DNA from: Stenotrophomonas indicatrix
Lineage (GTDB): Bacteria; Pseudomonadota; Gammaproteobacteria; Xanthomonadales; Xanthomonadaceae
Reading direction: 5' to 3'
NCBI RefSeq assembly: GCF_002750975.1
Contig: NZ_PEJS01000001.1
Coordinates: forward strand, 3,348,001-3,412,000
DNA length: 64,000 nt
A model generated the notes under the pieces. It saw only the letters and a program-made list of their open reading frames with translations. It did not search any database and had not been told where the DNA came from. Positions 8,655 through 56,103 of this stretch are shown here, piece after piece. Made by a program: the position numbers and the translations under genes. Within the stretch, counting starts at the first letter, position 1, and every line of letters begins with the position of its first letter.

Positions 8655-8670
8655 GTCCAAGGAAGCCGCA

Positions 8671-10029
8671 ATGATCCGCCGATCCCTCGCTGTTGCGCTG
8701 GCCACTGCCCTGCTGCCGTTGTCCGCCCATGCCGCCGACCTGCTGCAGGTCTATGAAATGGCGCGCAATGGTGACCCGCAGCTGTCCGCCGCCGAATCCA
8801 CCCGGCTGTACGACAAGGAAGGCGCCGTGCAGGCGCGTGCTGCCCTGCTGCCGCAGATCAATGGCCAGGCCCAGTTGAGCCGCACCCGCACCGAAGCCGA
8901 CCATGACGCCAACTCCGGCACGGTCACCAGCAAGCGCCGCAACTACACGATCGACGGTTCGCAGACGCTGTTCAACTGGACGCAGATCAACAACCTGCGC
9001 TCGCAGCGCGAGCTGAGCAAGGCGGCTGATTTCACCCTCGACTCGGCCAACGACAATCTGATCGTGCGCACCTCGGCGGCCTACTTCAACGTGCTGGTGG
9101 CGATCGAATCGCTGAACGCCGCACAGACCAATGAAGCGGCCGCGAAGAAGCAGTTCGACTTCGCCGACAAGCGCCTGGAAGTGGGCCTGGCGCCGATCAC
9201 CGACGTGCATGAAGCACGCGCCCAGTACGACCAGGCGCGCGCCAACACCATCGTTGCGCAGAACACCCTGGCCGATAACTACCAGGCCCTGACCGAACTG
9301 ACCGGCCAGCCGGTGGTCAACCTGAAGGGCCTGCCGGCCGATTTCCGTCCGGAAGTGCCGGCCAACCGCGGCAACCTGGACCAGCTGGTGCAGCAGGCGA
9401 CCACGCAGAATCCGGCGCTGAAGGCGCAGGAGCTGAAGGTCGGTGCCGCCGAAGCCGGCGTGCAGGCCGCCCGTGGCGGTCACTACCCGACCCTGTCGCT
9501 GGGCGGCAGCTGGGGCAAGAGCGCAACCTGGGGCGACAGCGTCGGCGCCGGTTCGCTCTCCCCCGATGCACGCACCAACAGCATCGGCCTGACCCTGAGC
9601 GTGCCGATCTTCTCCGGCGGCGCCACCCAGTCCGGCGTGCGCCAGGCGCTGGCCCAGCGTGACATCGCCCAGGACGGTTTCGAGCAGCAGAAGCGCGCGC
9701 TGGACCGCAACACCCGCAATGCCTACCAGACCCTGGTGCAGGGCATCAGCGAAGTGGAAGCGCGCCGTTTGGCCGTGGTTTCCGCGCAGAGCGCCTACGA
9801 TGCCTCGCAGGTTGGCCTGGAAGTGGGTACCCGCACCGTGCTGGACGTGATCCAGAACCAGCGCATCCTGTTCTCGGCACAGCTGGATTACGCGCAGGCC
9901 CGCTACAACTTCCTGCAGAACCGCCTGCTGCTGAGCCAGGCCGTGGGTGGCCTGGATGTCGCCGAACTGCAGGACATCAACCGCCTGCTGACCCAGGACG
10001 CGGGCAACCCGTCGACGACCACGAACTGA
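8671..10029 (+). CDS. tolC: TolC family outer-membrane efflux channel
   Basis: A 452-residue outer-membrane factor. The signal peptide MIRRSLAVALATALLPLSAHA precedes ADLLQVYEMARNGDPQLSAA, the usual TolC start. Two homologous OEP repeats follow, with the motif LEVGLAPITDVHEARAQYDQ in the first half and VGTRTVLDVIQNQRILFSAQ in the second; these mark the helical barrel repeats. The length fits TolC. It lies 16 nt after pcm and is followed by a strong terminator at 10053. It is the expected channel partner of SmeO-SmeP and probably serves other exporters too. Confidence 0.93.
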   Translation: MIRRSLAVALATALLPLSAHAADLLQVYEMARNGDPQLSAAESTRLYDKEGAVQARAALLPQINGQAQLSRTRTEADHDANSGTVTSKRRNYTIDGSQTLFNWTQINNLRSQRELSKAADFTLDSANDNLIVRTSAAYFNVLVAIESLNAAQTNEAAAKKQFDFADKRLEVGLAPITDVHEARAQYDQARANTIVAQNTLADNYQALTELTGQPVVNLKGLPADFRPEVPANRGNLDQLVQQATTQNPALKAQELKVGAAEAGVQAARGGHYPTLSLGGSWGKSATWGDSVGAGSLSPDARTNSIGLTLSVPIFSGGATQSGVRQALAQRDIAQDGFEQQKRALDRNTRNAYQTLVQGISEVEARRLAVVSAQSAYDASQVGLEVGTRTVLDVIQNQRILFSAQLDYAQARYNFLQNRLLLSQAVGGLDVAELQDINRLLTQDAGNPSTTTN

Positions 10030-10052
10030 GTCGGCGCGGCCGGCCTGGTCAG

Positions 10053-10076
10053 AAAGCCACCCGCGAGGGTGGCTTT
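10053..10076 (+). terminator. Rho-independent terminator of pcm-tolC
   Basis: Perfect 10-bp stem AAAGCCACCC / GGGTGGCTTT with a GCGA tetraloop and a run of six T at 10074-10079, 23 nt after the tolC stop. Confidence 0.9.
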
Positions 10077-10115
10077 TTTATTGATTGCAGGTGGCCTGCG
10101 GTGTGGGGGGGTGCG

Positions 10116-11444: not shown

Positions 11445-11679
11445 TCAAAGCTCCCTTGATGTCGCCCAAGCGTGGTCGACAACAGGCTGGCAGCCTGACG
11501 CGGTAAGCGGAATCGGAATCTGCGCCATACGAACGATGATGTGACAGCTTGCACGCCGTGGTCGGCGCGAGCGGTCCAGCTACGACAGATTCACCACCAT
11601 CAAGCAGGCTTGATGCAGGCGTTCACGACAGCGCAAAGGCGGGGCGCCCTTGAAACACCTGATGGCGACAGGCGGGGGC

Positions 11680-12978
11680 TCAGGCCAGCGGCGGCGGCAG
11701 GTGTGGAGCCACCAGCTGCAGGGTCCGCTGCAGCGCGCCGCGGCCATTGCTGACCAGCGTGCAACCGGCGCGGGCCATGTCTTCGCGCGCCTGCACGTCG
11801 TCGAGCAGGTGCAGCAGCAGATCACCCACCGCCTGCACGTCTTCGCCGATCAGCAGTGCACCGGCCTCGCGCATGCGCCGCGAGATCTCGGCGAAGTTGT
11901 GCAGATGCCGGCCGGTCACCGCTGCGGTGCCCATCGCTGCCGGTTCCAGCAGGTTGTGGCCGCCGATGGCCTGCAGGCTGCCACCGACGAAGGCCACCTG
12001 CGCACAGCCATAGAACGGCATCAGTTCGCCCAGCGTGTCGATGACGAAGACATCGCTACGCGCGTCCGGCCACTGCTGTGCGCGCCGCGTCGACACGTTC
12101 CAGCCCTGCTCGCGGGCCAGCGCCTCCACCTTGGGGAAGCGCTCCGGATGCCGCGGTGCCCACAGCAGCAGCAGGTCCGGATGCTGCTGGCGCAGGCGGC
12201 GGTGCAGGTCGATCACTGCCTGCTCTTCACCATCATGCGTGCTGGCCGCGATCCACACCGGGCGCGTGGCCGGCACATGGGCATGGAACTGTTCGATGAA
12301 GGGCTGCACGTCCGGCGTGGCGATGTCGAACTTCAGGTTGCCCAGTGCCTGCACCTGTTCCGGCGCCGCGCCCAGCTGCACGAACCGCGCAGCGTCATCC
12401 TGCGACTGTGCGGCCACGCAGGTGACCGTACGCAGCGCACGCCGGATCAACGCCGCCAGCACGCGGTAGCCGCGCAGCGATCGGGCCGACAGGCGCGCAT
12501 TGAGGATGTACACCGGAATGCGACGGTCGCGGCAGCCGAACAGCATGTTCGGCCACAGCTCGGTTTCCAGGATCAGCGCCAGGCTGGGCTGGAAGTGCCC
12601 CAGGAAGCGGTTGACGCTGCCCGGCACGTCGTACGGCAGGTACACATGGTCCAGCGCATCGCCCCACAGCGCGCGCACCCGTTCCGAGCCGGTCGGGGTG
12701 ATGGTGGTGATGACCCAGCGGATGTCCGGCCGCTGCGCGCGCAGCGCATTGACCAGCGGCGCAGCGGCGTTGACCTCGCCCACCGAGACCGCATGCAGCC
12801 AGACCCGGGGCTGGCCGCTGGGCTGCGGATAGGACGCATAGCGTTCATCCCAGCGCCGGAAGTATTCACGGACCCGGAAGCCGCGCCAGACCAGGTGGTA
12901 CACGGTGATCGGCAGCAGGAGGTACAGCACGGCCGAGTACAGGCCACGCAGGATCCATTCGACAGGGTCTTTACGCAT
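11680..12978 (-). CDS. waaA: 3-deoxy-D-manno-octulosonic acid (Kdo) transferase
   Basis: A 432-residue WaaA/KdtA, the enzyme that transfers Kdo from CMP-Kdo to lipid A precursor on the inner face of the cytoplasmic membrane. The start at 12978 (MRKDPVEWILRGLYSAVLYL) gives the family's N-terminal membrane anchor; the longer open frame upstream overlaps the opposite-strand lpxL gene and is rejected. Diagnostic segments are WLHAVSVGEVNAAAPLVNAL (Kdo-transferase N domain), LILETELWPNMLF, and the C-terminal FVGGSLQAIGGHNLLEPAAM. It is divergent from the lipid A acyltransferase at 13039, so two consecutive lipid A steps share a 60-bp promoter region. Confidence 0.93.
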   Translation of the reverse strand: MRKDPVEWILRGLYSAVLYLLLPITVYHLVWRGFRVREYFRRWDERYASYPQPSGQPRVWLHAVSVGEVNAAAPLVNALRAQRPDIRWVITTITPTGSERVRALWGDALDHVYLPYDVPGSVNRFLGHFQPSLALILETELWPNMLFGCRDRRIPVYILNARLSARSLRGYRVLAALIRRALRTVTCVAAQSQDDAARFVQLGAAPEQVQALGNLKFDIATPDVQPFIEQFHAHVPATRPVWIAASTHDGEEQAVIDLHRRLRQQHPDLLLLWAPRHPERFPKVEALAREQGWNVSTRRAQQWPDARSDVFVIDTLGELMPFYGCAQVAFVGGSLQAIGGHNLLEPAAMGTAAVTGRHLHNFAEISRRMREAGALLIGEDVQAVGDLLLHLLDDVQAREDMARAGCTLVSNGRGALQRTLQLVAPHLPPPLA

Positions 12979-13038
12979 GCGGCAAGGATACGGGAGCCCC
13001 CCGGGAAAGACACGCGGCCGGGTTGGTAGAATGGCGGC

Positions 13039-13956
13039 ATGTCCGATGCCACCACCGCCGTCCGTCCGTCGCTGCGTGATCCACGCAACTGGCCGATGTT
13101 TGCCGTCATGTTCACTGCCTTCGGGATCGCCCGGCTGCCGTGGACGCTGCAGCGCGTGCTGGGCCGCGGGGTCGGCTCGATCGCCTGGCGCCTGGCCGGC
13201 AGCCGCCGCCATGCCGCCGAGGTCAACCTCAAGCTGTGCTTCCCCGAGAAGGACGAGGCCTGGCGCAAGCGCCTGGTGCGCGACAGCTTCGACGCCTTGG
13301 GTGTGGGCATCTTCGAATGCGCGCGTTCCTGGTGGGGCAGCATCGACAGCATCCGTCCGCAGGTGCACATCGAAGGGCTGGAACATCTCAAGCAGATGCA
13401 GGCCGAAGGCCGCGGCGTGCTGCTGGTCTCGGGCCACTTCATGACCCTGGAGATGTGCGGCCGCCTGCTGTGCGACCACGTCGACCTGTCGGGCATGTAC
13501 CGCAAGCACAAGAACCCGGTGTACGAGTGGGCGGTGAAGTTCGGCCGCCTGCGCTATGCCAAGGCGATGTACGCCAACGAGGACATCCGCGCGACGGTGC
13601 GCCACCTGAAAAAGGGCGGCTTCCTCTGGTACGCACCCGACCAGGACATGCGCGGCAAGGACACCGTGTTCGTGCCGTTCTTCGGCCACACTGCCTCCAC
13701 CATCACCGCCACCCACCAGCTGGCGCGGATGACCGGTTGTGCGGTCATCCCCTACTTCCATCGCCGCGAAGGCGGGAAGTACTTCCTGAAGATCGGCGCG
13801 CCGCTGGAGAATTTCCCCAGCGAGGACGTCGAAGCCGATACCACGCGGGTCAACCAGGCCATCGAGCAGATGGTGCGCGAGGCACCGGACCAGTACCTGT
13901 GGATCCATCGCCGCTTCAAGCGCCAGCCCGGTGGGCGCAGCGATTTCTACAAGTGA
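13039..13956 (+). CDS. Lipid A late acyltransferase (LpxL/HtrB family)
   Basis: A 305-residue member of the LpxL/LpxM lysophospholipid-acyltransferase-like family, which adds a secondary acyl chain to Kdo2-lipid IVA at the inner membrane. The catalytic H-x4-E motif is seen as HFMTLE (His133, Glu138). Further family segments are EVNLKLCFPE near residue 61, FLWYAPDQDM and the C-terminal QYLWIHRRFKRQP. An N-terminal hydrophobic stretch anchors the protein. The partner gene waaA is divergent. Which acyl position and chain length it uses cannot be told from sequence, so I give no L/M/P letter. Confidence 0.9.
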   Translation: MSDATTAVRPSLRDPRNWPMFAVMFTAFGIARLPWTLQRVLGRGVGSIAWRLAGSRRHAAEVNLKLCFPEKDEAWRKRLVRDSFDALGVGIFECARSWWGSIDSIRPQVHIEGLEHLKQMQAEGRGVLLVSGHFMTLEMCGRLLCDHVDLSGMYRKHKNPVYEWAVKFGRLRYAKAMYANEDIRATVRHLKKGGFLWYAPDQDMRGKDTVFVPFFGHTASTITATHQLARMTGCAVIPYFHRREGGKYFLKIGAPLENFPSEDVEADTTRVNQAIEQMVREAPDQYLWIHRRFKRQPGGRSDFYK

Positions 13957-13980
13957 CGGGTGGCAGGGAAGGAACGTCCC

Positions 13981-14041
13981 ATCCACGCATGGCGTGGATC
14001 TACTGGGAATGCCGATCAGTAGATCCACGCCATGCGTGGAT
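13981..14041. repeat. Inverted pair of SMAG REPs at the 3' side of the RAYT gene
   Basis: One copy reads on the minus strand (13981-14003, ending in GATCTAC) and one on the plus strand (14019-14041, starting GTAGATCCACGCC). The 15-nt spacer makes the pair able to form one larger hairpin. They lie directly downstream of the transposase-like gene at 14065. Confidence 0.85.
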
Positions 14042-14064
14042 GTTCTCTCTTCCGATGCCGGAAT

Positions 14065-14514
14065 CTACAACGGCCAACGACACCAGGCGTGAGGGTAGTC
14101 CCCCAGCCCACCAGCCAATCCGGCCCGCACCGGATTGCCCAGGATGTACATCGCCTTGTCATGAAGGGATTCATCGGTACGCACCGCATGGTCGTGATAG
14201 CCGTGCTGCCAGAGCGGCCCTTTTCGTCCCGATATCCGGTTCAGCTGCCGGCTGCTGCGTGATTTCAGCAATGCCATGCACTGGGCCAGCGTTCCCTTCT
14301 GCAGCTCCATCAACCAGTGCAGGTGGTCGGGCATCACCACCCAGGCGAGGCTGTGGCTGATGCCGCTGCGTTCGACGAAGCGCAGCGCGTCCACCAGCAC
14401 AGCGACATTGCCTGCGTCGGAGAAGAATGGCTCCCGGCCGTGTGTTGTCGCGGTCAGGGAATAGACATTTCCCGTGCGGGAGTAGCGACCGTAGCGGAGT
14501 CTGGGGCTTGCCAT
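14065..14514 (-). CDS. REP-associated tyrosine transposase (RAYT)
   Basis: A 149-residue single-strand-DNA transposase-like protein of the TnpA_REP (Y1/HUH) type. The HUH motif is VVMPDHLHWLMEL (His64, His66). The catalytic Tyr is most likely Tyr107 in GYHDHAVRTDESL, followed by the family-typical YILGNPVRAGLA. RAYTs bind and cut REP hairpins with a GTAG-type 5' head, and here the gene is bracketed by REPs of exactly that type: two at 13981-14041 and five at 14616-14830. It looks intact, so REP mobilisation may still be possible. It is a domesticated single-copy gene type and not a classical IS. Confidence 0.9.
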   Translation of the reverse strand: MASPRLRYGRYSRTGNVYSLTATTHGREPFFSDAGNVAVLVDALRFVERSGISHSLAWVVMPDHLHWLMELQKGTLAQCMALLKSRSSRQLNRISGRKGPLWQHGYHDHAVRTDESLHDKAMYILGNPVRAGLAGGLGDYPHAWCRWPL

Positions 14515-14615
14515 GGGGACAGACTGCGGTTTGCCCGGTCATCCTTGCATTGGCGGACCACCCTGCGGCCAGTCGGGAAAAGCCGCGACACCGGCCAATG
14601 TTCATGGGAAAGCCC

Positions 14616-14830
14616 ATCCACGCATGGCGTGGATCTACTGCTCCCCCGCCAGACACGTCCCCGGAGATCCACGCCATGCGTGGATACGACCAGCCACCCC
14701 GCACAATCCAGTAGATCCACGCCATGCGTGGATAGGGCCCAACCCGCACACGCAAGTAGATCCACGCCATGCGTGGACGAGACGTTCCCCAACCCCGCGC
14801 GATTCAGTAGATCCACGCCATGCGTGGATG
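14616..14830. repeat. Array of five SMAG REPs upstream of the RAYT gene
   Basis: Copies lie at 14616-14638 (minus orientation), 14664-14687, 14711-14734, 14756-14778 and 14807-14830 (all plus). Three of the plus copies begin with GTAGATCCACGCCATGCG; the first has GAGATCC. The plus copies repeat every 45-51 bp with unrelated spacers. Together with 14515-14615, where I see nothing else, this fills the gap between the RAYT start and the end of the O-antigen-ligase-like gene. Confidence 0.9.
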
Positions 14831-14836
14831 CGGAAA

Positions 14837-16168
14837 TTACCCGGCGCCCGGCTGATCGTCCGGTTCGCGCGCCAGCAACGTGCCGACGAACAGCGCGGCG
14901 AGCAGGACGGTCAAGCCGCCCCAGAACGCGGAATAGAACGCCAGGTGCGTATTGAGCGGGAACACGGTGACCGCCAGTGCCAGCATTGCCGGGCGTGCAC
15001 GTTCGCGCGCCGGGGCCGGGGCGAAACGCCATGCCCGCCATGCCTGTGCCACCGCCGCCAGCCACAGCAGCAGCCCCAGCACACCTGTCTCGGCCAGGAT
15101 CTCCAGCACGATCTGATGGGCGTGCAGCGCGGGCATGGTGCCCCACACCGCCGGTCCTTCATCCGCAACGCAGTGGGGATAGGCATCGCGGAAGCCACGT
15201 GCACCGACACCATTGATCGGGTGTGCTTCGATCATGCAGGCCGCCGCACTCCAGATGCGGGTACGACCGGACAGAGCCTGCTCGACCCCGTCCTCGCCAC
15301 CGTCCCAGGCCATTGCCGTTCGCGCCACACGCTCACGCAGCTGCGGCACGCTGGCCGTCAACACGCCCGCCGTGAGCACAGCGGCCAGTGCCAGCAGACC
15401 CAGCCGCTTCCATCCCAGTTGGCGCACGCCGCTGTAGGCGACCACCAGGCCGAAGGTGATCCATGAGGCACGCGAGCCGGCCAGCAGCAGCACCACGCCC
15501 ACCGCGGCGACGGCCAGCAACCAGCCCGCATTGCCGAAACGGCGCGCCACCGGCAACAACAGGAACGGCGAAAGACTTGCCAGCACCTGGCCGAATTTCA
15601 GGTTGCACGGCCCAAGCGCGCCGCTGAGACGGTCGGCCAGCGCGGCTTCTTCAGCCGGGCACAATGCGTTGCCGCTGATGGCCAGCTTGATCTGCTGCAG
15701 CGACCAGAACCAGGGGCTGGTGCCTGCCAGTGCCTGCACCAGCGCATCGAGCGTCCACAGGCCGGTGATCACCGCCAACCCACCCAAGGTCAGGCGCCGC
15801 CGCTGCGGGGTGGCCACGGCGATCGCCACCAGCCACATGAAAGGCAGATAGCGCAGCCCGGCCGCAGCCTTGGTCCACGACGCCGAAGGGTCCACGGCAT
15901 CGAAGGCCGAGAAGGCCTGCGGCAACCAGTAGCCAAGGAAAAGAATCGATGTCAGTGCCCACGCTGCCGGGCTCAGCAGATGAGGGCGATGCTGCACCCG
16001 GCGGATGACCATGCGTGCGGCGGCGTACAACGCCCCCAGGCCCAGCACTGTTTCGGCAATACCCGGCAGCGGCCACAACGCAACGTAGGCCAGCACCCAC
16101 CAAGGTGCCCAGCGGCCGGCGCGCTCATCGCGCAGGGGCGGCGTGGCGTCAGCCAGCGAGGTCGGCAT
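14837..16168 (-). CDS. O-antigen ligase / polymerase family membrane protein (Wzy_C type)
   Basis: A 443-residue polytopic membrane protein. The start at 16168 (MPTSLADATPPLRDERAGRW) overlaps the end of the upstream glycosyltransferase gene by 20 nt. About 11 hydrophobic segments flank a long periplasmic loop with LSGRTRIWSAAACMIEAHPI followed by GVGARGFRDAYP and a later HAHQIVLEILAETG. These are the typical Wzy_C motifs of O-antigen ligases (WaaL) and polymerases. It follows a GT4 enzyme in one transcription unit, which supports a role in joining sugar chains to lipid A-core. Ligase versus polymerase cannot be settled from sequence. Confidence 0.8.
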   Translation of the reverse strand: MPTSLADATPPLRDERAGRWAPWWVLAYVALWPLPGIAETVLGLGALYAAARMVIRRVQHRPHLLSPAAWALTSILFLGYWLPQAFSAFDAVDPSASWTKAAAGLRYLPFMWLVAIAVATPQRRRLTLGGLAVITGLWTLDALVQALAGTSPWFWSLQQIKLAISGNALCPAEEAALADRLSGALGPCNLKFGQVLASLSPFLLLPVARRFGNAGWLLAVAAVGVVLLLAGSRASWITFGLVVAYSGVRQLGWKRLGLLALAAVLTAGVLTASVPQLRERVARTAMAWDGGEDGVEQALSGRTRIWSAAACMIEAHPINGVGARGFRDAYPHCVADEGPAVWGTMPALHAHQIVLEILAETGVLGLLLWLAAVAQAWRAWRFAPAPARERARPAMLALAVTVFPLNTHLAFYSAFWGGLTVLLAALFVGTLLAREPDDQPGAG

Positions 16169-17264
16169 AAAGACGGAGGGTATCGCGCTGCATGGCCTGC
16201 AGGGTAAACGGGATACGGCCCGGCAGCGACGGCGGCTGTGCCAGCAGGGCCAGCGCACGTTCACCCAGCAGCTGCGCATTGCCCAGCGGCACGGCGCCAC
16301 TGGGTTGCAGCTGCTGCAGCAGTTCGCCGACCCCACCATGGTTCCAACCCAGCACCGGGCGGCCGACCGACAACGCTTCGACCACGGTGCGACCAAAGGC
16401 TTCCGGTTTGTCCGACAGCTGCAGCACCAGATCGCTGGCGGCGTACGCCTGGGCGATGCGCGCAGTCGGCGTACTGATGTGCACCGCCCCGGTCACGCCC
16501 AGTGCGGCCGCCTGCCTGCGCAGCTCTGCCACATAGGCTTCCCGGCCAGGCTCGTCGGTGCCCAGCATCCACAACTGTGCCGGCACGCCTGCTGCACGGA
16601 CATCGGCAAGCAGCTGCAACGCGTGGGCGTGGCCTTTCAGGCGGGTGCCGCGACCGGGCAGTAGCAACAGCGGTCCGTCGACCTGGGCCAGCCACGGGTA
16701 GTCGGCCGCCAGCGCCAGCCGGGGACGCCGATCAGCGCGTGCCACGCGCGGGAACTGGCTGACATCCACCCCGCGCGGGATCACCTGCAGCCTGTCGTGC
16801 GGCACCGTCGGGTAATGCGTGTGTACGTAGTCGCGCACGCTGTTGGACACACAGATCACGCGTTCGCCGCTGGTCATCACCGCGCTGTAGCGGCTGGGCG
16901 AATTCAGCCCATGCACGGTAGTCACCCAATGCGGGCGTTGCGCCGGCTGCATCGCACGGATCGCGTACAGCCCCAGCCACGCCGGCAGGCGCGAACGGGC
17001 GTGGACGATGTCGGCGCCCACTTCGGTGAACAGGCGACGCAGGGTAGGCAGATGGCGCAGCGTCAGCAGCGACTTGCGGCCGATATCCAGGGTCAGGTGC
17101 TCGGCACCGCTGTCGAGCAGCGGCTGCACCAGGCGACCACCAGCGGACACCACCAGCGCGCGATGGCCGGCAGCGACCAGGGCCGCGGCGATTTCAAGGG
17201 TCGAGCGCTCGACACCGCCGGAGTGCAGCGCCGGCAGCAACTGCACCACGGTCAATCGGCGCAT
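16149..17264 (-). CDS. GT4 family glycosyltransferase
   Basis: A 371-residue GT-B-fold glycosyltransferase. The N-terminal half starts MRRLTVVQLLPALHSGGVER, typical of GT4 enzymes (the GG-V-E acceptor-side motif). The C-terminal donor half has LLLLPGRGTRLKGHAHALQL and the E-x7-E motif EAFGRTVVEALSVGRPVLG. The gene overlaps the following O-antigen-ligase-like gene by 20 nt, so the two are co-translated. It probably adds a sugar to the LPS core or O-chain at the cytoplasmic face. Donor and acceptor are unknown. Confidence 0.87.
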   Translation of the reverse strand: MRRLTVVQLLPALHSGGVERSTLEIAAALVAAGHRALVVSAGGRLVQPLLDSGAEHLTLDIGRKSLLTLRHLPTLRRLFTEVGADIVHARSRLPAWLGLYAIRAMQPAQRPHWVTTVHGLNSPSRYSAVMTSGERVICVSNSVRDYVHTHYPTVPHDRLQVIPRGVDVSQFPRVARADRRPRLALAADYPWLAQVDGPLLLLPGRGTRLKGHAHALQLLADVRAAGVPAQLWMLGTDEPGREAYVAELRRQAAALGVTGAVHISTPTARIAQAYAASDLVLQLSDKPEAFGRTVVEALSVGRPVLGWNHGGVGELLQQLQPSGAVPLGNAQLLGERALALLAQPPSLPGRIPFTLQAMQRDTLRLYADLAG

Positions 17265-48343: not shown

Positions 48344-49057
48344 ATGGACGGCACGCCACGGAACGGCACGCCCCTGCCCTGCTCGCCGCTGGATGCCGGG
48401 CAGGCGCGCCTGATCGCCGAGTCCTTCCGGCCGATGCAGGCCTGGGGCAGCCGCCGCGATTACTACTACACGCGCGGCAAGCTGGGCAGCGACCCGCTGT
48501 ATGACGGCGTGCTGCAGCACCTTCCCGATGACGGCCAGCCGGTGCTCGACCTGGGCTGCGGGCTGGGCCTGTTCGCGCATGTGCTGCGCCAGCGCGGTCG
48601 CCAGCAGGGGTACCTCGGGGTGGACGTGGACAGCGACAAGATCGCCCGTGCGCAGCGCGCCGGCAGCGGCCTGGCCGACGTACGGTTCGACTGTCTGGAT
48701 GTGCAGGCGCCGTTGCCGGCGCATGGTGGGCATGTGCTGCTGCTGGATGTGCTGCAGTACCTGGACGAAGCGCCGCAACTGGAGCTGCTGCGCGCGGTGA
48801 GCGCGCGGGTCGCGCCCGGTGGCCGCCTGCTGCTGCGCACACCGCTGGCGACCGGCGACCGCCGCGACCGCACCACGCGGGTGGCTGACCGCCTTGCCTG
48901 GCTGGTCGGCTGGATGGGCACGCAACCGCGCCACTACCCGGATCCGCAGCGGCTGCAGGCCACGCTGGCGGCTGCCGGCATGCAGGTGGCTCCGTTGCGT
49001 CCGCTGCATGGGCGCACGCCGTTCAACAGCTGGTTGCTGGTGGCCGAGCGCTTATAG
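48344..49057 (+). CDS. Class I SAM-dependent methyltransferase
   Basis: A 237-residue methyltransferase starting at 48344 (MDGTPRNGTPLPCSPLDAGQ). The SAM-binding motif I is PVLDLGCGLGLFAHVLRQRG, followed by GVDVDSDKIARAQRA (acidic loop), VLLLDVLQYLDEAPQL and ARVAPGGRLLLRTPL. The last gene of the aminotransferase-hydrolase operon and the last one with host-like GC before the low-GC island. Substrate unknown. Confidence 0.85.
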   Translation: MDGTPRNGTPLPCSPLDAGQARLIAESFRPMQAWGSRRDYYYTRGKLGSDPLYDGVLQHLPDDGQPVLDLGCGLGLFAHVLRQRGRQQGYLGVDVDSDKIARAQRAGSGLADVRFDCLDVQAPLPAHGGHVLLLDVLQYLDEAPQLELLRAVSARVAPGGRLLLRTPLATGDRRDRTTRVADRLAWLVGWMGTQPRHYPDPQRLQATLAAAGMQVAPLRPLHGRTPFNSWLLVAERL

Positions 49058-49167
49058 AGACGCTCTGACGCGGCGACCCGCGTAAGCGAGTCGCAAATGA
49101 CCGCAAGCCGGAACAGAAAAATCCCTTAGGCCCGGCTGAAAGCGACGAACTGAATTCATCCGCACAT

Positions 49168-49335
49168 TCACGATCTCTTGAGTTGCCCTCTGGCGGGGCC
49201 GGCGCTTCGTGCTTCCTGGATTGTTTCAAGCAGCGAAGATAAAGCCGCAATGAAGTCAGAGGCGCCATGACTGACACCATCAACTTTTTCTTCGAAAGCC
49301 AGCAATTCTGCGGAGTTGGAGGAACGCCAGGCGCC
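49168..49335 (-). pseudogene. Possible remnant of a minus-strand gene at the left edge of the island
   Basis: On the minus strand a frame from 49335 to a stop at 49168 encodes a protein-like, helical stretch containing AELLAFEEKVDGVSHGASDF and IAALSSLLETIQEARSAG. A TTG at 49305 would give a 45-residue product, but no good ribosome site is seen, and a stop codon closes the frame upstream. It may be the tail of a gene cut off by the island. A 29-codon frame on the plus strand (49267-49356) overlaps it. The rest of 49058-49555 holds nothing I can assign except the precursor gene's upstream region. Confidence 0.3.
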
Positions 49336-49555
49336 TCACTGCTCCCTTCCACATAATCTCTCAGAGACAGCCCTATCTGCATGGGTAGGGAGAGGCCGTG
49401 ACAGTTCGGTCTGCGGACGACAATTCACGCCCCGCTCTGCGCACCTATCGCAACTCAATGCACAAATCAACAGTCTCGCCATCCAATTGACAGTCCACGC
49501 ACCAACTGGCAAAAAAAAATTGCCCAATGTGGGCTATCAAAAGGACATAAAGCAG

Positions 49556-49720
49556 ATGACTACTCCGGAAAACGTGAGGGTGCTGGGACGACAGGTGGCG
49601 CGCGAGCTGACCCGAGAGGAAATTGACATGGTGTCCGGCGGGAGAAACACCAACTGCAATACGTCCATGCAGTGCATTCAGAACGATGACTTCATTGACA
49701 TCCCACCGACGTTCGGCTAA
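49556..49720 (+). CDS. Putative RiPP precursor peptide with double-glycine leader (graspetide type)
   Basis: A 54-residue peptide. The start at 49556 has AAAGGA 10 nt upstream; an open extension to 49316 lacks this. The leader (residues 1-29) ends ELTREEIDMVSGG, a classical double-glycine site cut by C39 peptidases after Gly29. The 25-residue core has nucleophilic side chains Thr32, Thr36, Ser37, two Cys (34 and 40), and a cluster of acids Asp44, Asp45 and Asp48, ending in a Pro-rich tail. Thr/Ser before a run of Asp is what ATP-grasp enzymes join as esters in graspetides. Ligase and exporter genes follow directly. No family name is assigned; the crosslinks are inference. Confidence 0.75.
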   Translation: MTTPENVRVLGRQVARELTREEIDMVSGGRNTNCNTSMQCIQNDDFIDIPPTFG

Positions 49721-49739
49721 TTCCACCATTCATTAACCG

Positions 49740-49771
49740 GAAAGAGGCGGAAAAACAATTCCGCCTCTTTC
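49740..49771 (+). terminator. Hairpin between precursor and ligase genes (attenuator)
   Basis: A 12-bp perfect stem, GAAAGAGGCGGA / TCCGCCTCTTTC, with an 8-nt A-rich loop, 20 nt after the precursor stop. It can act as a partial terminator that lowers enzyme relative to precursor mRNA, or protect the precursor transcript's 3' end. Confidence 0.7.
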
Positions 49772-49819
49772 TGAAATTCTGGTGAATGTATCGAAGCCAA
49801 TTCTACGGAATATCAAACC

Positions 49820-50932
49820 ATGACAATCCTGATTGTCGGATTCAAGGAAGACATCCACGGAGACGCGGTCTCATGGGCGCTTAATCATCAAAAGATTCCT
49901 CACCATCTCGTTCACTTCTCGAATTTTCCAACACAGCAACCCATAACCATTTCGATATCGAAGGCGGATGATCTTACTCAATCCATAGTGTTCGGGGAAA
50001 CAGACGCCACCAAAGAAAACATTATTAACCTGAGGAATGCCACCGCCATATGGCTAAGAAGACCCAATACATCCGTCTTCGAGCTAAGCGGCGTCCATTC
50101 CGGCGACCTGCACTACGTGGCCGGTGAGTGCCGGTCGTTCTGCGCCGGCCTCATTGCCAACCTCCCAGAAAGCTGCAAATGGATAAACCCTCTGCCCGCT
50201 CACTACGTTGCCGGAAGCAAGGCCCGTCAACTGAATTTGGCCGCCGCTTCGGGTCTCAAAATCCCTACGACCCTGATGAGCAACAGCGCTAGCGAAATCC
50301 GAAAGTTTGTCTCCAGGCAGAAGGGCGGAACAGTGTACAAACCACTTCATCCCGGATTTTGGAATGAGTCCAATCGGTCACTTGTCCAATACACCACCCC
50401 CGTGACCAACGAGATGCTAGAAAACAGCGGAGCACTGGAGCTATGCCCGGGAATATATCAAGAAGAAATTCAAAAAAAATATGAAATTCGAGCAAATTTC
50501 CTTGGATCAAAAATTGTTTCGGCAAAGATAGAATCGCAGGCTCAAGAAAACACAAAATCCGATTGGCGCGTTGACCTGCTGAACAAAGTCTCCATCGAGC
50601 CATATGAAATTCCCGGGGAGATCGCGGACAAAATCGAATGCCTCATGAAGAAAATGAATCTTCGCTTTGGATGCATTGATCTTGTAAGAGACGAGGATGG
50701 AGATTATGTGTTTCTTGAAGTTAACGAGCAGGGGCAGTTCCTCTGGATCGAGGAGAGATGCCCGGAGATAGCGATTCTCGGAGAGTTCTGCGACTTCCTA
50801 TGTCGCGAAAGCGGAATAACCTTCACTCCTGAGCAATGGCCCAATCTTTCCGATTATCTAGCCTCGGAGAGATTCAGCACGACACACAAAATGTCGCTCG
50901 AACTAGAAATAAATCAGGCTCGCGCGCTGTGA
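49820..50932 (+). CDS. ATP-grasp ligase of the microviridin/graspetide maturase type
   Basis: A 370-residue ATP-grasp enzyme, expected to activate Asp/Glu side chains of the precursor as acyl-phosphates and close them onto Thr/Ser (esters) or Lys (amides). Visible features are the nucleotide-binding Lys in TVYKPLHPG (Lys174), YEIRANFLGSKIVSAKIESQ with DWR at 248-250, CIDLVRDEDGDYVFLEVNEQ and GQFLWIEE, carrying the Mg ligands Glu300 and Asn302. The ESQ...DWR...EVN.GQ.LWIE series is the signature of MvdC/MvdD-like maturases. It is slightly longer than usual (about 320-330). Low GC like the neighbours. The stop overlaps the start of the next gene (GTGA). Confidence 0.8.
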   Translation: MTILIVGFKEDIHGDAVSWALNHQKIPHHLVHFSNFPTQQPITISISKADDLTQSIVFGETDATKENIINLRNATAIWLRRPNTSVFELSGVHSGDLHYVAGECRSFCAGLIANLPESCKWINPLPAHYVAGSKARQLNLAAASGLKIPTTLMSNSASEIRKFVSRQKGGTVYKPLHPGFWNESNRSLVQYTTPVTNEMLENSGALELCPGIYQEEIQKKYEIRANFLGSKIVSAKIESQAQENTKSDWRVDLLNKVSIEPYEIPGEIADKIECLMKKMNLRFGCIDLVRDEDGDYVFLEVNEQGQFLWIEERCPEIAILGEFCDFLCRESGITFTPEQWPNLSDYLASERFSTTHKMSLELEINQARAL

Positions 50933-51795
50933 AATCGAGAGCTACAGCTGCGACCATGATGGCAGTGGCGACATTCATCTCCACATTCGCAATAATATAT
51001 TTATTGTTTTTCCACAATCAAGAAGACCCGGCCAACGAAAATTGTGAAGCCGTTCCAACCGCATGGAATAGCATGCCGAGAATCATTATTTTCGGAGAAA
51101 TTCATGGAACAAATGAAGCGCCGCGTTTTGTTGCGGAGCTTGTGTGCAACATTGCCAGAAGCGCACCAGTTACGGTTGGCATCGAACACCCGCCAAGCGA
51201 ACAGTCAACGCTTGATGATTTCATGAAAGCCAAGACCCAAAAGGAGAAAAACGAAGTAATTTCTTCTTCCCCATTCTGGAACCGTGATTTCCAAGACGGA
51301 AAGACTAGTTCTGCGATGCTACAGATGCTGGAGAGGATTAAACAACTAAAGCATACTGGCGCGAAAATTTACATTCGGGCGATAGGGGGTGAGGGACCTG
51401 GTCAAACCGACGAAATTTTTAGAAACATCATGAGTTCGGAGCAAGAATCAGGTACCAAGATCGTAGCACTAGTTGGAAACGGGCACGCAAGAAAGATCCA
51501 CATGCAGGCCGATGCATCCGATAGAAGCAAAACTTCTCCCATCGACCTCAAGGTCATCGAAATAGAATACTCGAGCGGCAGTGCATGGACATGCGCGCCA
51601 ACATGCCAAATCCAGAAATTTGGCCAAGATAATCTCGGTGAGAAAGAAATATCGCTGAAAGTACGGACCTCGCCTGCACACGCAGCTGGGCATCCTGACT
51701 GGATCTATCTTGGTCGGTCACATGCATCCCCCCCGGGGTACCTCAGGGCCCGAACGATAACAGCCAAGCAAATGAGCTATGAATCAGCTGAATAA
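50929..51795 (+). CDS. Membrane-anchored TIKI/TraB-like (GxxH-motif) protein
   Basis: A 288-residue protein starting at a GTG that overlaps the ligase stop (GTGA); the frame is open further upstream, but that would overlap the ligase gene by 97 bp. Residues 11-28 are one membrane segment with the rest probably periplasmic. Motifs are IIIFGEIHGTNEAPRFVAEL (GEIH, 56-59), VGIEHPP (Glu86, His87) and VALVGNGHARKIH (GNGH, 183-186). Paired GxxH motifs are the mark of the TIKI/TraB/ChaN-like superfamily; eukaryotic TIKI is a membrane metalloprotease and enterococcal TraB/PrgY blocks peptide pheromone. A role in immunity or further peptide processing is therefore possible but unproven. Confidence 0.6.
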   Translation: MKSRATAATMMAVATFISTFAIIYLLFFHNQEDPANENCEAVPTAWNSMPRIIIFGEIHGTNEAPRFVAELVCNIARSAPVTVGIEHPPSEQSTLDDFMKAKTQKEKNEVISSSPFWNRDFQDGKTSSAMLQMLERIKQLKHTGAKIYIRAIGGEGPGQTDEIFRNIMSSEQESGTKIVALVGNGHARKIHMQADASDRSKTSPIDLKVIEIEYSSGSAWTCAPTCQIQKFGQDNLGEKEISLKVRTSPAHAAGHPDWIYLGRSHASPPGYLRARTITAKQMSYESAE

Positions 51796-53098
51796 GGACG
51801 CACGTCCCGATATGTCAGCCGAAGGTGGCGCGCAGCTTTTTCGTAAAGAAGCAGTATCTGCAACACGAAGAGATTCGTATGGATGTGTCAGTCCCCCGTT
51901 ACCTAGGCTGGGCTGGCAAACAGCGGCCTTTTCATTCCTAGCAGTTTGCGCCGTCATTGCCGCGATATTTTTTGGAAATGTAGAGCAGAAGGCGCGCGTA
52001 CATGGGCGCATGATTCCGGCCTCGGGGCTAAATTCCACACTATCGCCCGCATCCGGAACAATTATTAAGGCCATCGTCGAAGAAGGGCAATTCGTATCCT
52101 CCGGAGACGTTGTTATGGTCATTTCTACCGACAGGAATGGCTTTTCGTTGGACGGTACAGTTGCAGAAAGAGTAGCCGCATCGCTGCAAAAACAGGCGGC
52201 CGGTCTACGTCAATCTTTTGCTGACCGATCCATCTCAATGCAGCACGAGAAAAATGCATTGCAGGGCCGCGCGGCCATAATTCAGCAGGAGCTGGCTGCG
52301 GCCAAGCGAGAGGTAGAGCTGCGATCTCGGCAGAGCGAGATCGCCTTGGAGAATCTTACGAGAATTCGACCGCTGCAGAAGGAAAGAATACTCAGCGAGA
52401 TCCAGATCCGGCAATATGAGAACACATTGCTCGATGCAGATTCCAGGAAAATTTCCGCTGAAAGAGACGTGTTGCGGCTGAGACGCGAACTGGGAGACAC
52501 CATTGGATTAATCTCCGAACTTCCAGTGACGTTAAGCAATCAGCAGGGTGAAATTGAACTGAAGCTAAAGGATGTCGAACAGAGTATAGCTAAAAATGAT
52601 TTACAGCAGTCCATAGTCGTCAAGGCGTCTATATCAGGGACGATATCAGCCATCGGATTCAATACCGGAGAATCCGTAAGAGAGGGACAACGACTATTTT
52701 CCATTATTCCCGCAGGAGATAGCTTGTATGCAGAGCTATGGGTAAATTCTCGAGCGATGGAACAACTTAGCAATGAAAGCGTCGTGTATATACGTTACGG
52801 CGCCCAGGCAAGAGGACTCCAACGCAGTCAGAAAGGCGAAATTATCGAGCTAGGGAGAACCCCATTTACTCCTTCGGAAATAACCTCAAAAGCGGGATTG
52901 AAATTTGAGCAGCCCGCATTCAGGATTGTGGCAGCCCCTCTTGGAAGTCTTCCCAGAGATAATCTTGACCATATCAACCTTCGCCCTGGCAGTGCCGTAG
53001 AAGCAGACTTGATACTTGGAAGAAAGCACATCTATGAGCTACTTATTCCAGCGCGTAGCGGGAGATTCAACACAAGCGTCGAAAATCGGAGCGATTAG
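51779..53098 (+). CDS. HlyD/CvaA-family peptide-export membrane fusion protein
   Basis: A 439-residue adaptor of the colicin V (CvaA) type that links an inner-membrane ABC exporter to an outer-membrane channel. One membrane segment (FSFLAVCAVIAAIFFGNVEQ, about 50-68) is followed by a lipoyl half (GRMIPASGLNSTLSPASGTI), a long coiled coil (about 130-270, rich in Glu/Lys/Arg/Leu/Gln), then a second lipoyl half (ASISGTISAIGFNTGESVRE) and a beta-barrel. It overlaps the previous gene by 17 nt and ends 3 nt before the exporter start. No TolC-type gene is in the island, so the chromosomal TolC may complete the channel. Confidence 0.87.
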   Translation: MNQLNKDARPDMSAEGGAQLFRKEAVSATRRDSYGCVSPPLPRLGWQTAAFSFLAVCAVIAAIFFGNVEQKARVHGRMIPASGLNSTLSPASGTIIKAIVEEGQFVSSGDVVMVISTDRNGFSLDGTVAERVAASLQKQAAGLRQSFADRSISMQHEKNALQGRAAIIQQELAAAKREVELRSRQSEIALENLTRIRPLQKERILSEIQIRQYENTLLDADSRKISAERDVLRLRRELGDTIGLISELPVTLSNQQGEIELKLKDVEQSIAKNDLQQSIVVKASISGTISAIGFNTGESVREGQRLFSIIPAGDSLYAELWVNSRAMEQLSNESVVYIRYGAQARGLQRSQKGEIIELGRTPFTPSEITSKAGLKFEQPAFRIVAAPLGSLPRDNLDHINLRPGSAVEADLILGRKHIYELLIPARSGRFNTSVENRSD

Positions 53099-53101
53099 TT
53101 G

Positions 53102-55201
53102 ATGCAGAACCGATACACCAAGAGCTCTATGCGGCAACTGCCGATCATCCAACAGAGCGAAATGGCCGAGTGCGGACTCGCTTGTCTTGCAATGATCGCG
53201 AAATATTATGGCCATGATCTGGATCTAGCGGCCCTGCGTCGCCGCCATCCTATTTCATCTAGAGGCGCGAGTCTTTCTCAAATCATGAGCATCGCCGATA
53301 GACTTGGATTGGAGGCACGCGCCGTTCGGGCGGAGGTGGAGTACGTCAGGCGGCTAAGGTCACCGTCCATCCTGCACTGGGGCCTCAACCACTTTGTCGT
53401 CCTCAAGAAAGTACAGGGAACTGAATTTTGTATACATGACCCGGCCCGAGGGGAGGTTAGAATTTCCGCCCAGGAATTCAATAGAAAATTTACCGGGGTC
53501 CTTCTCGAGATTAGTTGCACCAACTCGTTCTCCCCAGTATCTGAAAAATCGAAAATATCGATAAATAAGATAATTGGAAGGATTGACGGAATTAAACTGG
53601 CAGCACTCCAGCTAATTGCGTTAGCGCTTTCGCTCGAACTACTAACTTTGATTGCCCCCCTTATCATGCAGGTGGTAATTGACCATGTCCTTGGCTCGAA
53701 CGACTTGGAATTGCTGGCACTGACAGGCATTTCATTTGCTGGCTTAGTAGTATTTCAATCAGCGATCTCCTCAGCGAGAGGGCTATTCCTTTCCAGTCTC
53801 GGCGCTTCTTTCAATGCCCACCTTGTCAAGAATCTCTCTGGGCATTTATTAAATCTTCCGCTGACCTTCTTTGAAAGAAGAACCATGGGCGGGGTTTTAT
53901 CCAGATTCCTCTCAATTAATTCGATCCAGCAGTCACTTACCGTGAGCCTTCTCGAGTCTGTACTGGATAGCCTGATGATAGTTTCGGCCCTGCTATTGAT
54001 GGCATTCTACAGCCCTGTCTCCGCCCTTTCCGTAATCATAGCTTTTGCCTTTTATCTAGTCCTGCGCCTTATCGGTTTTCGTCGCCTTAGACAAATGAAA
54101 GAGCATCAACTGGCCTCGATAGCTCTACAGCAAACGCTCATGATCGAGGCTGTGGGCGGTATTCAGACGCTAAAATTGGGCAATCATCAGCAAGTGCGCC
54201 ACAACAGCATCAGCAATGCCACGTTCGAAATTGCGAACCATGATGCGGCTATAGGCGGAGTTCTGGCCAACTTCTCTGCGCTTTCCAAACTGATATTTGG
54301 ATTGCAGCGAATAGCGCTGATATGTCTGTGCGCATGGATGGTAGTGCACCAGCGGATGAGTGCGGGCTCTCTTGTTGTTGTTATTTCCTACTCCGAGCTA
54401 TTCATTAACAGAGGCGCAGCGTTAATCGACAAAATAATCGATCTTCGACTAGTCGGGATGCATGTTGAGAGAATTTCCGACATCGCTCTGGAGCCAACGG
54501 AGATCGATCTGGACTCTACCTACAGCGGCCCTGCGCCCTCAGCAGATCTCCAGATTGAGAACGTCAGCTTTCGATACTCCGAGGCCGACCCCTGGATTAT
54601 TCGAAACTGCTCCTTAAAAATCGCGGAAGGCCAAAGCATCGCCATCACGGGCGCCTCTGGATGCGGAAAAACAACGCTTGCAAAGCTATTAACGGGACTA
54701 CTACGACCAACCGAAGGCCGCATCTTGATTGGAGGTGTTGACATTTATCATATGGGCTTATCTGCATATCGGCGGCAATTAAGCACGGTGATGCAGGAGG
54801 ATGTACTCTTCTTTGGATCGATCGCAGACAACATCTCATTCTTTGACATGGATGCGGAAAGCTCATCAATTCACAACGCAGCAGCAGCCGCACAAGTCCA
54901 CAATGAAATTATTCGCATGCCAATGGGCTACGAAACTTTAGTGCGCGACATGGGATCTTCCCTATCTGGCGGCCAGAAGCAGAGAATTCTCCTAGCCAGG
55001 GCACTCTACAGAAAACCGAGAATACTGCTCTTAGATGAGGCGACGAGCCACCTAGACATTGGAAATGAAAAAGAAATTAATAGATATATCTCAAGCACTG
55101 CTGCAACCCGCATAATCATCGCGCATCGTCCTGAAACAATAAGAAGTGCGGATCGGGTTATAGAGCTGCGAAACGGTTCCGTTCGCCAGGACGTTTCCTG
55201 A
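53102..55201 (+). CDS. C39-peptidase-containing ABC exporter (bacteriocin-type PCAT)
   Basis: A 699-residue peptidase-containing ABC transporter that removes double-glycine leaders and exports the core peptide. The peptidase (1-130) has an intact triad, Cys24 in QQSEMAECGLACLAMIAKYY, His97 in LHWGLNHFVVL and Asp113 in IHDPARG, with Gln18 as oxyanion residue. Six membrane segments follow (about 160-420). The ATPase has Walker A GASGCGKTTLAK, the signature SLSGGQKQRILLARALYRKP and Walker B ILLLDEATSHLD with the H-loop IIIAHRPETI. It matches the Gly-Gly site of the precursor at 49556. The closest named relatives are CvaB and RaxB. Confidence 0.92.
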   Translation: MQNRYTKSSMRQLPIIQQSEMAECGLACLAMIAKYYGHDLDLAALRRRHPISSRGASLSQIMSIADRLGLEARAVRAEVEYVRRLRSPSILHWGLNHFVVLKKVQGTEFCIHDPARGEVRISAQEFNRKFTGVLLEISCTNSFSPVSEKSKISINKIIGRIDGIKLAALQLIALALSLELLTLIAPLIMQVVIDHVLGSNDLELLALTGISFAGLVVFQSAISSARGLFLSSLGASFNAHLVKNLSGHLLNLPLTFFERRTMGGVLSRFLSINSIQQSLTVSLLESVLDSLMIVSALLLMAFYSPVSALSVIIAFAFYLVLRLIGFRRLRQMKEHQLASIALQQTLMIEAVGGIQTLKLGNHQQVRHNSISNATFEIANHDAAIGGVLANFSALSKLIFGLQRIALICLCAWMVVHQRMSAGSLVVVISYSELFINRGAALIDKIIDLRLVGMHVERISDIALEPTEIDLDSTYSGPAPSADLQIENVSFRYSEADPWIIRNCSLKIAEGQSIAITGASGCGKTTLAKLLTGLLRPTEGRILIGGVDIYHMGLSAYRRQLSTVMQEDVLFFGSIADNISFFDMDAESSSIHNAAAAAQVHNEIIRMPMGYETLVRDMGSSLSGGQKQRILLARALYRKPRILLLDEATSHLDIGNEKEINRYISSTAATRIIIAHRPETIRSADRVIELRNGSVRQDVS

Positions 55202-55296
55202 GGTCAATGAGCGGGGTAATCGGTGCATGCCCGGCACACTGCAATGCACTGGTTCTGCCGTTGAGCATGTCCCCGCAGTTGCCCTACTGCATGCGC

Positions 55297-56103
55297 TTAG
55301 ACGTGATCTCGAGGGGAGGCTGAATTACTGCAGGGCAACCCCGCCTTCAGGCCGCGCTCGTCCAGCACCTGCAGCACCTGTTCGATGATGGCCAGGTTGT
55401 GGCCATGTGCGGCACCTTCATGCAGCAGCACGATCGCGCCCGGGCGCAGGTCCGGGAGCAGACGCGCCAGCACGCCATCCGGGGTGCAGCCGACGCCGTC
55501 ATAACCGCGGGCGCTCCAGCCAACGCGCACCAGGCCCAGCTTGCGCAGTACCGGCGCCACGAACGGGTTGGTCATGCCCACCACCGAGCGGTACCAGCGC
55601 ACCCGTCGCCCACTCACCGCCTGCAGTGCCTGCTGGCAGCCCTCGATTTCCGCCGCCATCGTGCCCGGGCCCAGCCGCCAGAAGCGCGCCTGCGGATGGC
55701 TGTGGCTGTGGTTGCCGAGGTCGTGTCCGCGACGCAGGATCTCCTCCACCAGGGCCGGATGCGCCAATACGCGCTCGCCGACCAGGAAAAAGGTCGCCTT
55801 CGCCTGGTGCCGGTCCAGCAGATCCAGCACCGCCGGGGTCTGTTCACTGGGGCCGTCATCGATGGTCAGCCAGACGCTGTTGCCGGCCTCGGGCAACCGG
55901 CTCAGCACCGGCGCGTAGAAGCGGCTGTTGGGCAGGAACACCGGCACCATGAACAACGCGTGGCTTGCCACCATCAGGGCCAGACCCCAGTGCCAGCCCG
56001 CCAGCACCCAGACCAGGATCACGGCCAGCTGCGACAGCACCAGCCAGGGCACCCAGCGCCAGGGCCGGGTCGGGATGCGATGCAATGTTCCTGCGTTGGT
56101 CAT
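55297..56103 (-). CDS. Polysaccharide deacetylase family protein (NodB domain)
   Basis: A 268-residue protein starting at 56103 (MTNAGTLHRIPTRPWRWVPW); an ATG 15 nt upstream is also possible. Two hydrophobic segments near residues 18-55 make it membrane-bound. The NodB homology domain has motif 1 VWLTIDDGPSEQTPAVLDLL (catalytic Asp pair), motif 2 HDLGNHSHSHPQARFW (metal His), motif 3 near RWYRSVVGMTNPFV, and the late GAIVLLHEGAAHG. It deacetylates an N-acetylated sugar or a related amide. GC is host-like again, marking the right end of the island; I see nothing in 55202-55296. Confidence 0.87.
   Translation of the reverse strand: MTNAGTLHRIPTRPWRWVPWLVLSQLAVILVWVLAGWHWGLALMVASHALFMVPVFLPNSRFYAPVLSRLPEAGNSVWLTIDDGPSEQTPAVLDLLDRHQAKATFFLVGERVLAHPALVEEILRRGHDLGNHSHSHPQARFWRLGPGTMAAEIEGCQQALQAVSGRRVRWYRSVVGMTNPFVAPVLRKLGLVRVGWSARGYDGVGCTPDGVLARLLPDLRPGAIVLLHEGAAHGHNLAIIEQVLQVLDERGLKAGLPCSNSASPRDHV

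Follow-up and report, generated by a model that had tools for sequence, protein, structure and literature searches.

A graspetide-type gene cluster in a low-GC island of Stenotrophomonas indicatrix, with a linked TIKI-superfamily protein that may serve in self-protection

INTRODUCTION

In two loci assigned to branch 4 by Makarova and coworkers, precursor cluster 2716 is accompanied by an ATP-grasp gene, a C39 gene, and a homologue of erythromycin esterase, for which a role in modification or resistance was proposed, and Tiki/TraB peptidases are mentioned for branch 2 of the candidate phyla radiation (PMC8939145). Carter and coworkers considered that proteases adjoining clusters may be maturation or resistance genes, and in the accounts consulted here the self-protection of graspetide producers is a matter of conjecture. 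Gra-8 of Lysobacter capsici, a member of group 19, has been produced and has conserved C-terminal acceptors, with up to three losses of water seen by mass spectrometry (PMC9576775), and a further group, 16, includes thatisin (PMC13097080). Here we describe a cluster of five genes at positions 49556-55201 of a 64,000-nucleotide stretch of the Stenotrophomonas indicatrix genome (contig NZ_PEJS01000001.1), referred to in its entirety as the window. The cluster encodes a precursor peptide, an ATP-grasp ligase, a TIKI-superfamily protein, and export proteins; it is very probably of graspetide type, and the best overall explanation, to which we would give a little better than an even chance, is that of an acquired graspetide cluster with a self-protective TIKI hydrolase.

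RESULTS

Gene content of the cluster

The five genes lie on the + strand in the order and at the coordinates placed by the initial annotation, and the start of the third gene, now GTG 50929, was the only point in need of refinement. The features are as follows.

49556..49720, + strand: precursor peptide, 54 residues (AAGGA 5' of its ATG; leader-family profile; close homologues P0211 and P0227)
49556-49642, + strand: precursor leader, with SGG at its end
49643-49717, + strand: precursor core, RNTNCNTSMQCIQNDDFIDIPPTFG
49738..49773, + strand: 15-bp hairpin between the precursor and ligase genes
49820..50932, + strand: ATP-grasp ligase of graspetide type, 370 residues (sub-cut-off matches to TIGR04187/04184/04185; PDB matches 5ig9, 123 bits, and CdnC, 103 bits; tree clade)
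50929..51795, + strand: predicted TIKI-superfamily hydrolase with an N-terminal hydrophobic anchor, 288 residues (GTG start; catalytic residues; fold matches)
51779..53098, + strand: HlyD-family periplasmic adaptor (PF13437, 60.5 bits against a cut-off of 22.2)
53099..55201, + strand: C39 peptidase/ABC exporter (PF03412, 124.9 bits; PF00664; PF00005; alternative ATG at 53102)

The stop codon of the ligase gene and the GTG start of the TIKI gene overlap, the TIKI and HlyD genes share 17 nucleotides, and the HlyD and exporter genes abut, a spacing that fits a single transcript.

Precursor family and core motif

A profile built from 12 precursors recovered 231 proteins at E<=0.01, and the earlier proposal of a graspetide-type cluster with a Gly-Gly-leader precursor was upheld by this leader family and by conservation in the core; the same is true of the expectation that the precursor would be conserved next to the ligase in relatives (leader family; P0211 and P0227). 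Leaders are common to the family, that of the window ending in VSGG, and cores differ by type (THATGPNGDDPADPG, CTKSTCSASDNNSCDLDQC, GTSQPTDSW, and others); precursors of the same leader family were found in 17 of 60 ATP-grasp stretches by one pattern. The core type of the window, TNCNTxxQCIxNDDFI, also occurs in the close homologues P0211 and P0227, and since P0211 and the ligase P0004 each stand on a single 6195-base contig from the same source, these two are probably neighbors. Beside other ligases of the window's clade (see below) the cores are VMYTNCNDPTTPGGALADDF (L220), GPTKPPFNTYCWQGSGPSIWDDWRA (L037), and DTMCDNGHACVFDDCEIVR (L122). T-x-C...D-D is common to six precursors, namely, those of the window, L037, L220, L122, P0211, and P0227; in their alignment, T32, C34, and D44 are invariant and D-D is present in each. 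Two Cys residues are conserved in the three closest precursors, and the core from genome G138 contains three Cys and a single residue of the Ser/Thr/Lys set. Among the 120 listed proteins of the 231, to which motif counts apply, T-x-C...D-D was found in three (the window's own, P0211, and P0227), and its absence from the other 117 is informative. The locus combines a short precursor with a conserved leader adjoining the ligase, conserved Ser/Thr/Lys donors and Asp/Glu acceptors in the core, and an ATP-grasp ligase with known graspetide synthetases among its relatives.

Related precursors exist in other Stenotrophomonas genomes, with strong matches in G059 and G082. A separate Stenotrophomonas precursor type (GTSQPTDSW...) was observed in P0132, P0140, and L052; P0132 is recorded in 234 contigs, and in L052 the precursor has ATP-grasp, HlyD, and C39 genes in its vicinity.

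Affiliation of the ligase

The ligase had been described as MvdC/D type. The motifs LRRP and EVNxxGQ on which such a description can be based are present, but membership of the MvdC and MvdD families was rejected: NCBIfam scores were far under the cut-offs (MvdD, 175 of 475 bits; MvdC, 162 of 425; SAV_5884, 196 of 350), and the ligases of microviridin type fell elsewhere in the tree. Among graspetide ligases in the PDB, 5ig9 and CdnC (7mgv) were followed by AMdnB (7m4s; 102 bits), 5ig8 (96 bits), 9bou (68 bits), and 7drm (36 bits), and the window ligase aligns with side-chain macrocyclases over much of its length. In a tree built with FastTree from ligase residues 67-330 of 213 sequences (193 in a first version), the window ligase, L122, L220, L037, and 17 listed proteins make up a clade of 21 members (support, 0.977), and no located locus other than these three and the window belongs to this clade; besides P0001 to P0004, it holds 13 metagenome proteins whose neighbors are not visible. 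The four microviridin-type references, all fragments, are elsewhere in the tree, and only the inner clade is trustworthy because support is low at some deeper nodes (0.33 and 0.45). A position outside MvdC/MvdD had been named in advance by the initial annotation as refuting its proposal; the ligase does lie outside, yet the graspetide reading survives this placement because graspetide synthetases extend well beyond MvdC/D.

In genomes G380, G361, and G372 and in family hits with open frames of approximately 1000-1100 residues (L038, L039, and L041), ATP-grasp matches were seen within very long open frames beside ABC-transporter matches; these frames are perhaps fused or merely long.

The TIKI protein

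The start of the TIKI gene is most likely GTG 50929, since P0121, a homologue with 97% identity, starts there; ATG 50836 was rejected on the same grounds. The encoded protein has an N-terminal hydrophobic stretch followed by E57xH59, E86, and H186, a 2Glu/2His set. The corresponding residues E3900, H3902, E3930, and H4030 are needed for catalysis by RRSP (PMC6254334). An alignment of 20 homologues shows no variation at E86 and H186 and hardly any at H59, and L037 and L091 have Asp at the position of E57. An AlphaFold2 model built from seven sequences had a mean pLDDT (predicted local distance difference test) of 70, rising to 76-92 in blocks across residues 51-190, and all seven PDB matches at E<=0.001 were entries for HopBA1, BcR135 (three), EreC, and PMT (two), proteins of the TIKI/Ere group (PMC6254334). 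The best Pfam family was Cofac_haem_bdg/ChaN (PF04187), at 24.5 bits under a cut-off of 27.7, and the protein does not qualify as a ChaN member. The modeled core fold and the 2Glu/2His residues place it in the TIKI superfamily, and the TIKI-like membrane protein of the initial annotation stands on these fold matches, on the residue set, and on the hydrophobic N terminus. In a comparison of this genome with Stenotrophomonas sp. PFBMAA-4, identity was 58% for the TIKI proteins (84% covered) and 85% for the ligases.

Loci of relatives with a linked TIKI gene

Among 105 ATP-grasp stretches (some of which overlap, as do L166 and L184, or share one genome), L037 and L220 were the two with a TIKI match close to the ligase, in addition to the window; L162-L186 and L219-L238 reach at most approximately 1.5 kb past the match, and more distant TIKI genes would be missed there. 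The order in L037 is precursor, TIKI, ligase, a frame without assignment, HlyD, and C39. In genome G1082, the order is TIKI, precursor, and ligase; at a distance of a few kilobases, C39 and HlyD stand next to another ligase, which is on the opposite strand. In L239 (G1082:C1:45000-62000, positions 8451-16987), two ATP-grasp genes on opposite strands were observed approximately 2.5 kb from each other; TIKI and precursor genes accompany one of them, and C39 and HlyD genes accompany the other. In G138, the end of one contig (L088) carries TIKI followed by HlyD and C39, and that of another (L122) carries the clade ligase and its precursor; if both contig ends meet, the gene order is that of the window.

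In genome G058, a stop-free TIKI frame that is 42% identical over residues 26-272 adjoins a C-terminal ligase remnant (31 of 56 residues identical to P0003), and no precursor, HlyD, or C39 match was found beside this pair. The two stops met by a longer, 319-residue query lie 5' of the TIKI frame, because the match to the 288-residue form has none. This gene looks like an orphan left by a decayed cluster, a state that is as expected for an orphan immunity gene. At L076 (G058:C3:214000-232000, positions 8767-9836), the TIKI-type gene, stop free and beside the P0003-type ligase remnant, has a lipoprotein-like signal by eye.

The island and its distribution

The cluster occupies a low-GC island.

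49052..55333, no strand: low-GC island, flanked by a methyltransferase gene and a presumed polysaccharide deacetylase gene

The right-hand gene was taken for a polysaccharide deacetylase by eye from its motif. The sharp drop in GC content noted initially is genuine: the value is 0.497 in the island, 0.685 in the left flank, and 0.670 in the right flank, and 6-kb windows outside the island (183 overlapping windows along the 64-kb sequence) never fell below 0.619. At third codon positions, GC content is 0.48-0.55 in the four large island genes, compared with 0.87-0.88 in the two neighbors tested. Of 91 genomes of the genus, 88 have a match to the neighboring methyltransferase gene, in some cases a short one. 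The cluster was absent from the same site in all 29 relatives checked (L093-L121; the 29 best of the 88 flank-matching genomes, own genome excluded), in which the flanks are approximately 70-450 nucleotides apart, and the ligase was matched in 4 of the 91 genomes, the three others at 28-32% identity; because of the empty site and the scarcity of the ligase, the cassette looks like a rare acquisition. Three wider samples, which overlap and include the own genome, gave ligase matches as follows: order, 63 of 398 genomes; family, 68 of 395; and class, 22 of 369. Close public copies of the ligase are P0001 (97%), P0002 (PFBMAA-4, 85%), P0003 (55%), and P0004 (54%). A search for repeats flanking the island gave two-copy or paired matches only, none above 93%, and thus no flanking repeats; no relative was found in a scan of viral contigs, and a scan of genome contigs gave one weak 54-residue match (L002).

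Export and transcription

The dedicated C39 exporter with an intact triad reported at the outset is supported by a C39 domain, ABC membrane and ATPase domains in Pfam, and C24, H97, and D113 (numbered from ATG 53102), which were placed by motif and not by alignment with a solved C39 structure. Elsewhere in the genome, C39 was matched just once more, within a 268-residue frame. A gene outside the island is a candidate for the third exporter part.

8731..9993, + strand: TolC-type outer-membrane channel gene (TIGR01844, 413 bits against a cut-off of 225)

Promoter-like matches (7 found, 5.5 expected, standard deviation 2.5) and terminator-like matches (9 found, 7.3 expected) were at chance level. 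For the 99-nucleotide spacer that separates precursor and ligase genes (49721-49819), the folding energy is -34.1 kcal/mol, against -16.2 for shuffled sequences (z, -6.0), and the hairpin at 49738-49773 is a possible attenuator or mRNA stabilizer. The corresponding spacers of L220 and L122 also contain hairpins (z, -3.3 each; 0 of 200 and 3 of 200 shuffles as good); that of L036 is unremarkable (z, -1.5; 16 of 200).

DISCUSSION

The gene set, its motifs, their conservation, and the ligase clade are features of the sequence itself, and from them a mechanism can be suggested. The ligase would bind the leader (RxLGR..ARELTxEE) and activate Asp side chains of the core, and attack by the conserved Thr would close one or two omega-ester rings that link the T-x-C region to the D-D pair; on the most economical reading, the product bears at least one Thr-Asp ester ring. 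The C39 domain would cleave after SGG and the product would leave through the C39/HlyD proteins and a TolC-type channel, and outside the cytoplasm the two Cys residues of the window core would most likely pair as a disulfide. The TIKI protein would sit on the periplasmic side of the inner membrane, attached by its anchor, and would hydrolyze the product and so protect the producer by opening the ester ring or cutting the peptide, by analogy with the Ere enzymes, which open macrolide lactones. Self-protection is the role that we prefer, at slightly less than an even chance, because the protein is probably periplasm facing, its Ere relatives hydrolyze esters, the association is with one core type, and in G058 the gene seems to have outlasted the remainder of the cluster.

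The same graspetide cluster can be read with the TIKI protein as a periplasmic maturation peptidase that trims the product after C39 cleavage. Some TIKI enzymes are proteases, RRSP among them (PMC6254334), leader cleavage or maturation was proposed by Makarova and coworkers for the Tiki/TraB peptidases of branch 2, and TIKI and core type occur together; however, a C39 peptidase is already available for leader removal, and the TIKI gene of G058 persists beside a ligase remnant where no precursor or exporter match was found, so that we consider this role rather unlikely. It is improbable that the protein is noncatalytic and acts by binding heme or metal in the manner of ChaN, or confers immunity by binding: the sub-cut-off ChaN match and the Asp in place of E57 in two homologues would suit such a function, but the invariance of E86 and H186 and near invariance of H59 in the 20 aligned proteins, together with EreC and BcR135 among the fold matches, argue for an enzyme. 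Least probable, in our estimation, is a disulfide-containing, microcin-like bacteriocin with a ligase engaged in other chemistry such as amino acid addition. C39/HlyD export is typical of such bacteriocins and two Cys residues are conserved in the closest precursors, but the alignment of the ligase with side-chain macrocyclases over much of its length, and the conservation of Thr and D-D as well as Cys, favor a graspetide.

Several observations weigh against self-protection by a catalytic TIKI protein within an acquired graspetide cluster. The linked protein of L037 is one of those with Asp at E57; the fit of the model to its PDB matches is loose (TM-score by query, 0.33-0.53; root mean square deviation, 6.3-16.9); and the apparently faster change of the TIKI protein relative to the ligase is taken from a single genome pair. 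TIKI is no general part of graspetide clusters, since it was found in only 2 of the 105 stretches, and its linkage with L122 can only be presumed because the genes are on two contig ends. Within the genus, 65 of 91 genomes have TIKI homologues, mostly distant ones; mere presence is therefore a weak argument, and the G058 gene could serve otherwise. The linked TIKI proteins are not monophyletic in the tree; because they form no single clade, they either diverge fast or were recruited more than once. The T-x-C...D-D motif was derived from the same sequences in which it was counted, which provides no independent test, and the product linkages, export, topology, enzymatic activity, and role of the TIKI protein are what we infer from these data.

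A bolder version of the preferred scheme holds that T-x-C and D-D supply four ring residues, that the ligase natively joins both Thr and Cys to Asp to give a lactone and a thiolactone, and that the linked TIKI protein is the first dedicated ring-opening enzyme of graspetide self-resistance. This reading draws on the core of G138, with its one Ser/Thr/Lys and three Cys residues, and from non-native thioesters formed by graspetide synthetases (PMC13097080, PMC12291112); we regard it as speculative, and as a shade less probable than a noncatalytic TIKI protein. Self-protection by ring opening becomes directly testable with the ligase clade, the core motif, and an Ere/TIKI-type hydrolase in hand together, and the conserved Cys makes a natural thioester testable by mass.

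The initial annotation, which knew of no described Stenotrophomonas product with this gene set, overstated the novelty of the locus, given that Gra-8 of L. capsici has been made (PMC9576775) and that related precursors occur in Stenotrophomonas G059, G082, and P0132. The open-licence PubMed Central (PMC) matches listed included no paper joining graspetides with Stenotrophomonas, a pair for which no separate search was made, and none on this precursor group; no paper in the same collection combined ribosomally synthesized and posttranslationally modified peptides, Stenotrophomonas, a biosynthetic gene cluster, and ATP-grasp. The graspetide class is already known, and the precursor group may sit in an already numbered group.

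With thatisin and the THATGPNGDDPADPG precursors, which we take to be thatisin-like, the window shares a leader family, a GG site, C39/HlyD neighbors, and an ATP-grasp ligase. The THATGPNGDDPADPG cores have T-x-x-T...D-D-x-x-D and no Cys, and no TIKI match was found in those stretches, in contrast to the window with its Cys residues and TIKI gene; the core pattern of group 16, presumably TxxTxxxxDDxxD, was seen in L047, L048, and L051 and is not that of the window precursor. Gra-8 comes from the same bacterial order as the window, to which both Lysobacter and Stenotrophomonas belong, and has conserved C-terminal acceptors. The microviridin-type ligases 5ig9 and 5ig8 (MdnC and MdnB, as we take them to be), 7m4s (AMdnB), and 7mgv (CdnC) are homologous to the window ligase at 96-123 bits but belong to another part of the tree. 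EreC, BcR135, RRSP, and ChaN share the TIKI fold and the 2Glu/2His set with the window protein, which differs from them in its membrane anchor and graspetide context, with 8-12% identity in the seven best fold matches. The branch 4 loci of Makarova and coworkers are the closest published gene set that we met, a likeness drawn from their description by cluster numbers. Thus, the idea of resistance or modification has been published, and what is new here is the association of TIKI and ligase at the level of a clade, together with the shared core motif.

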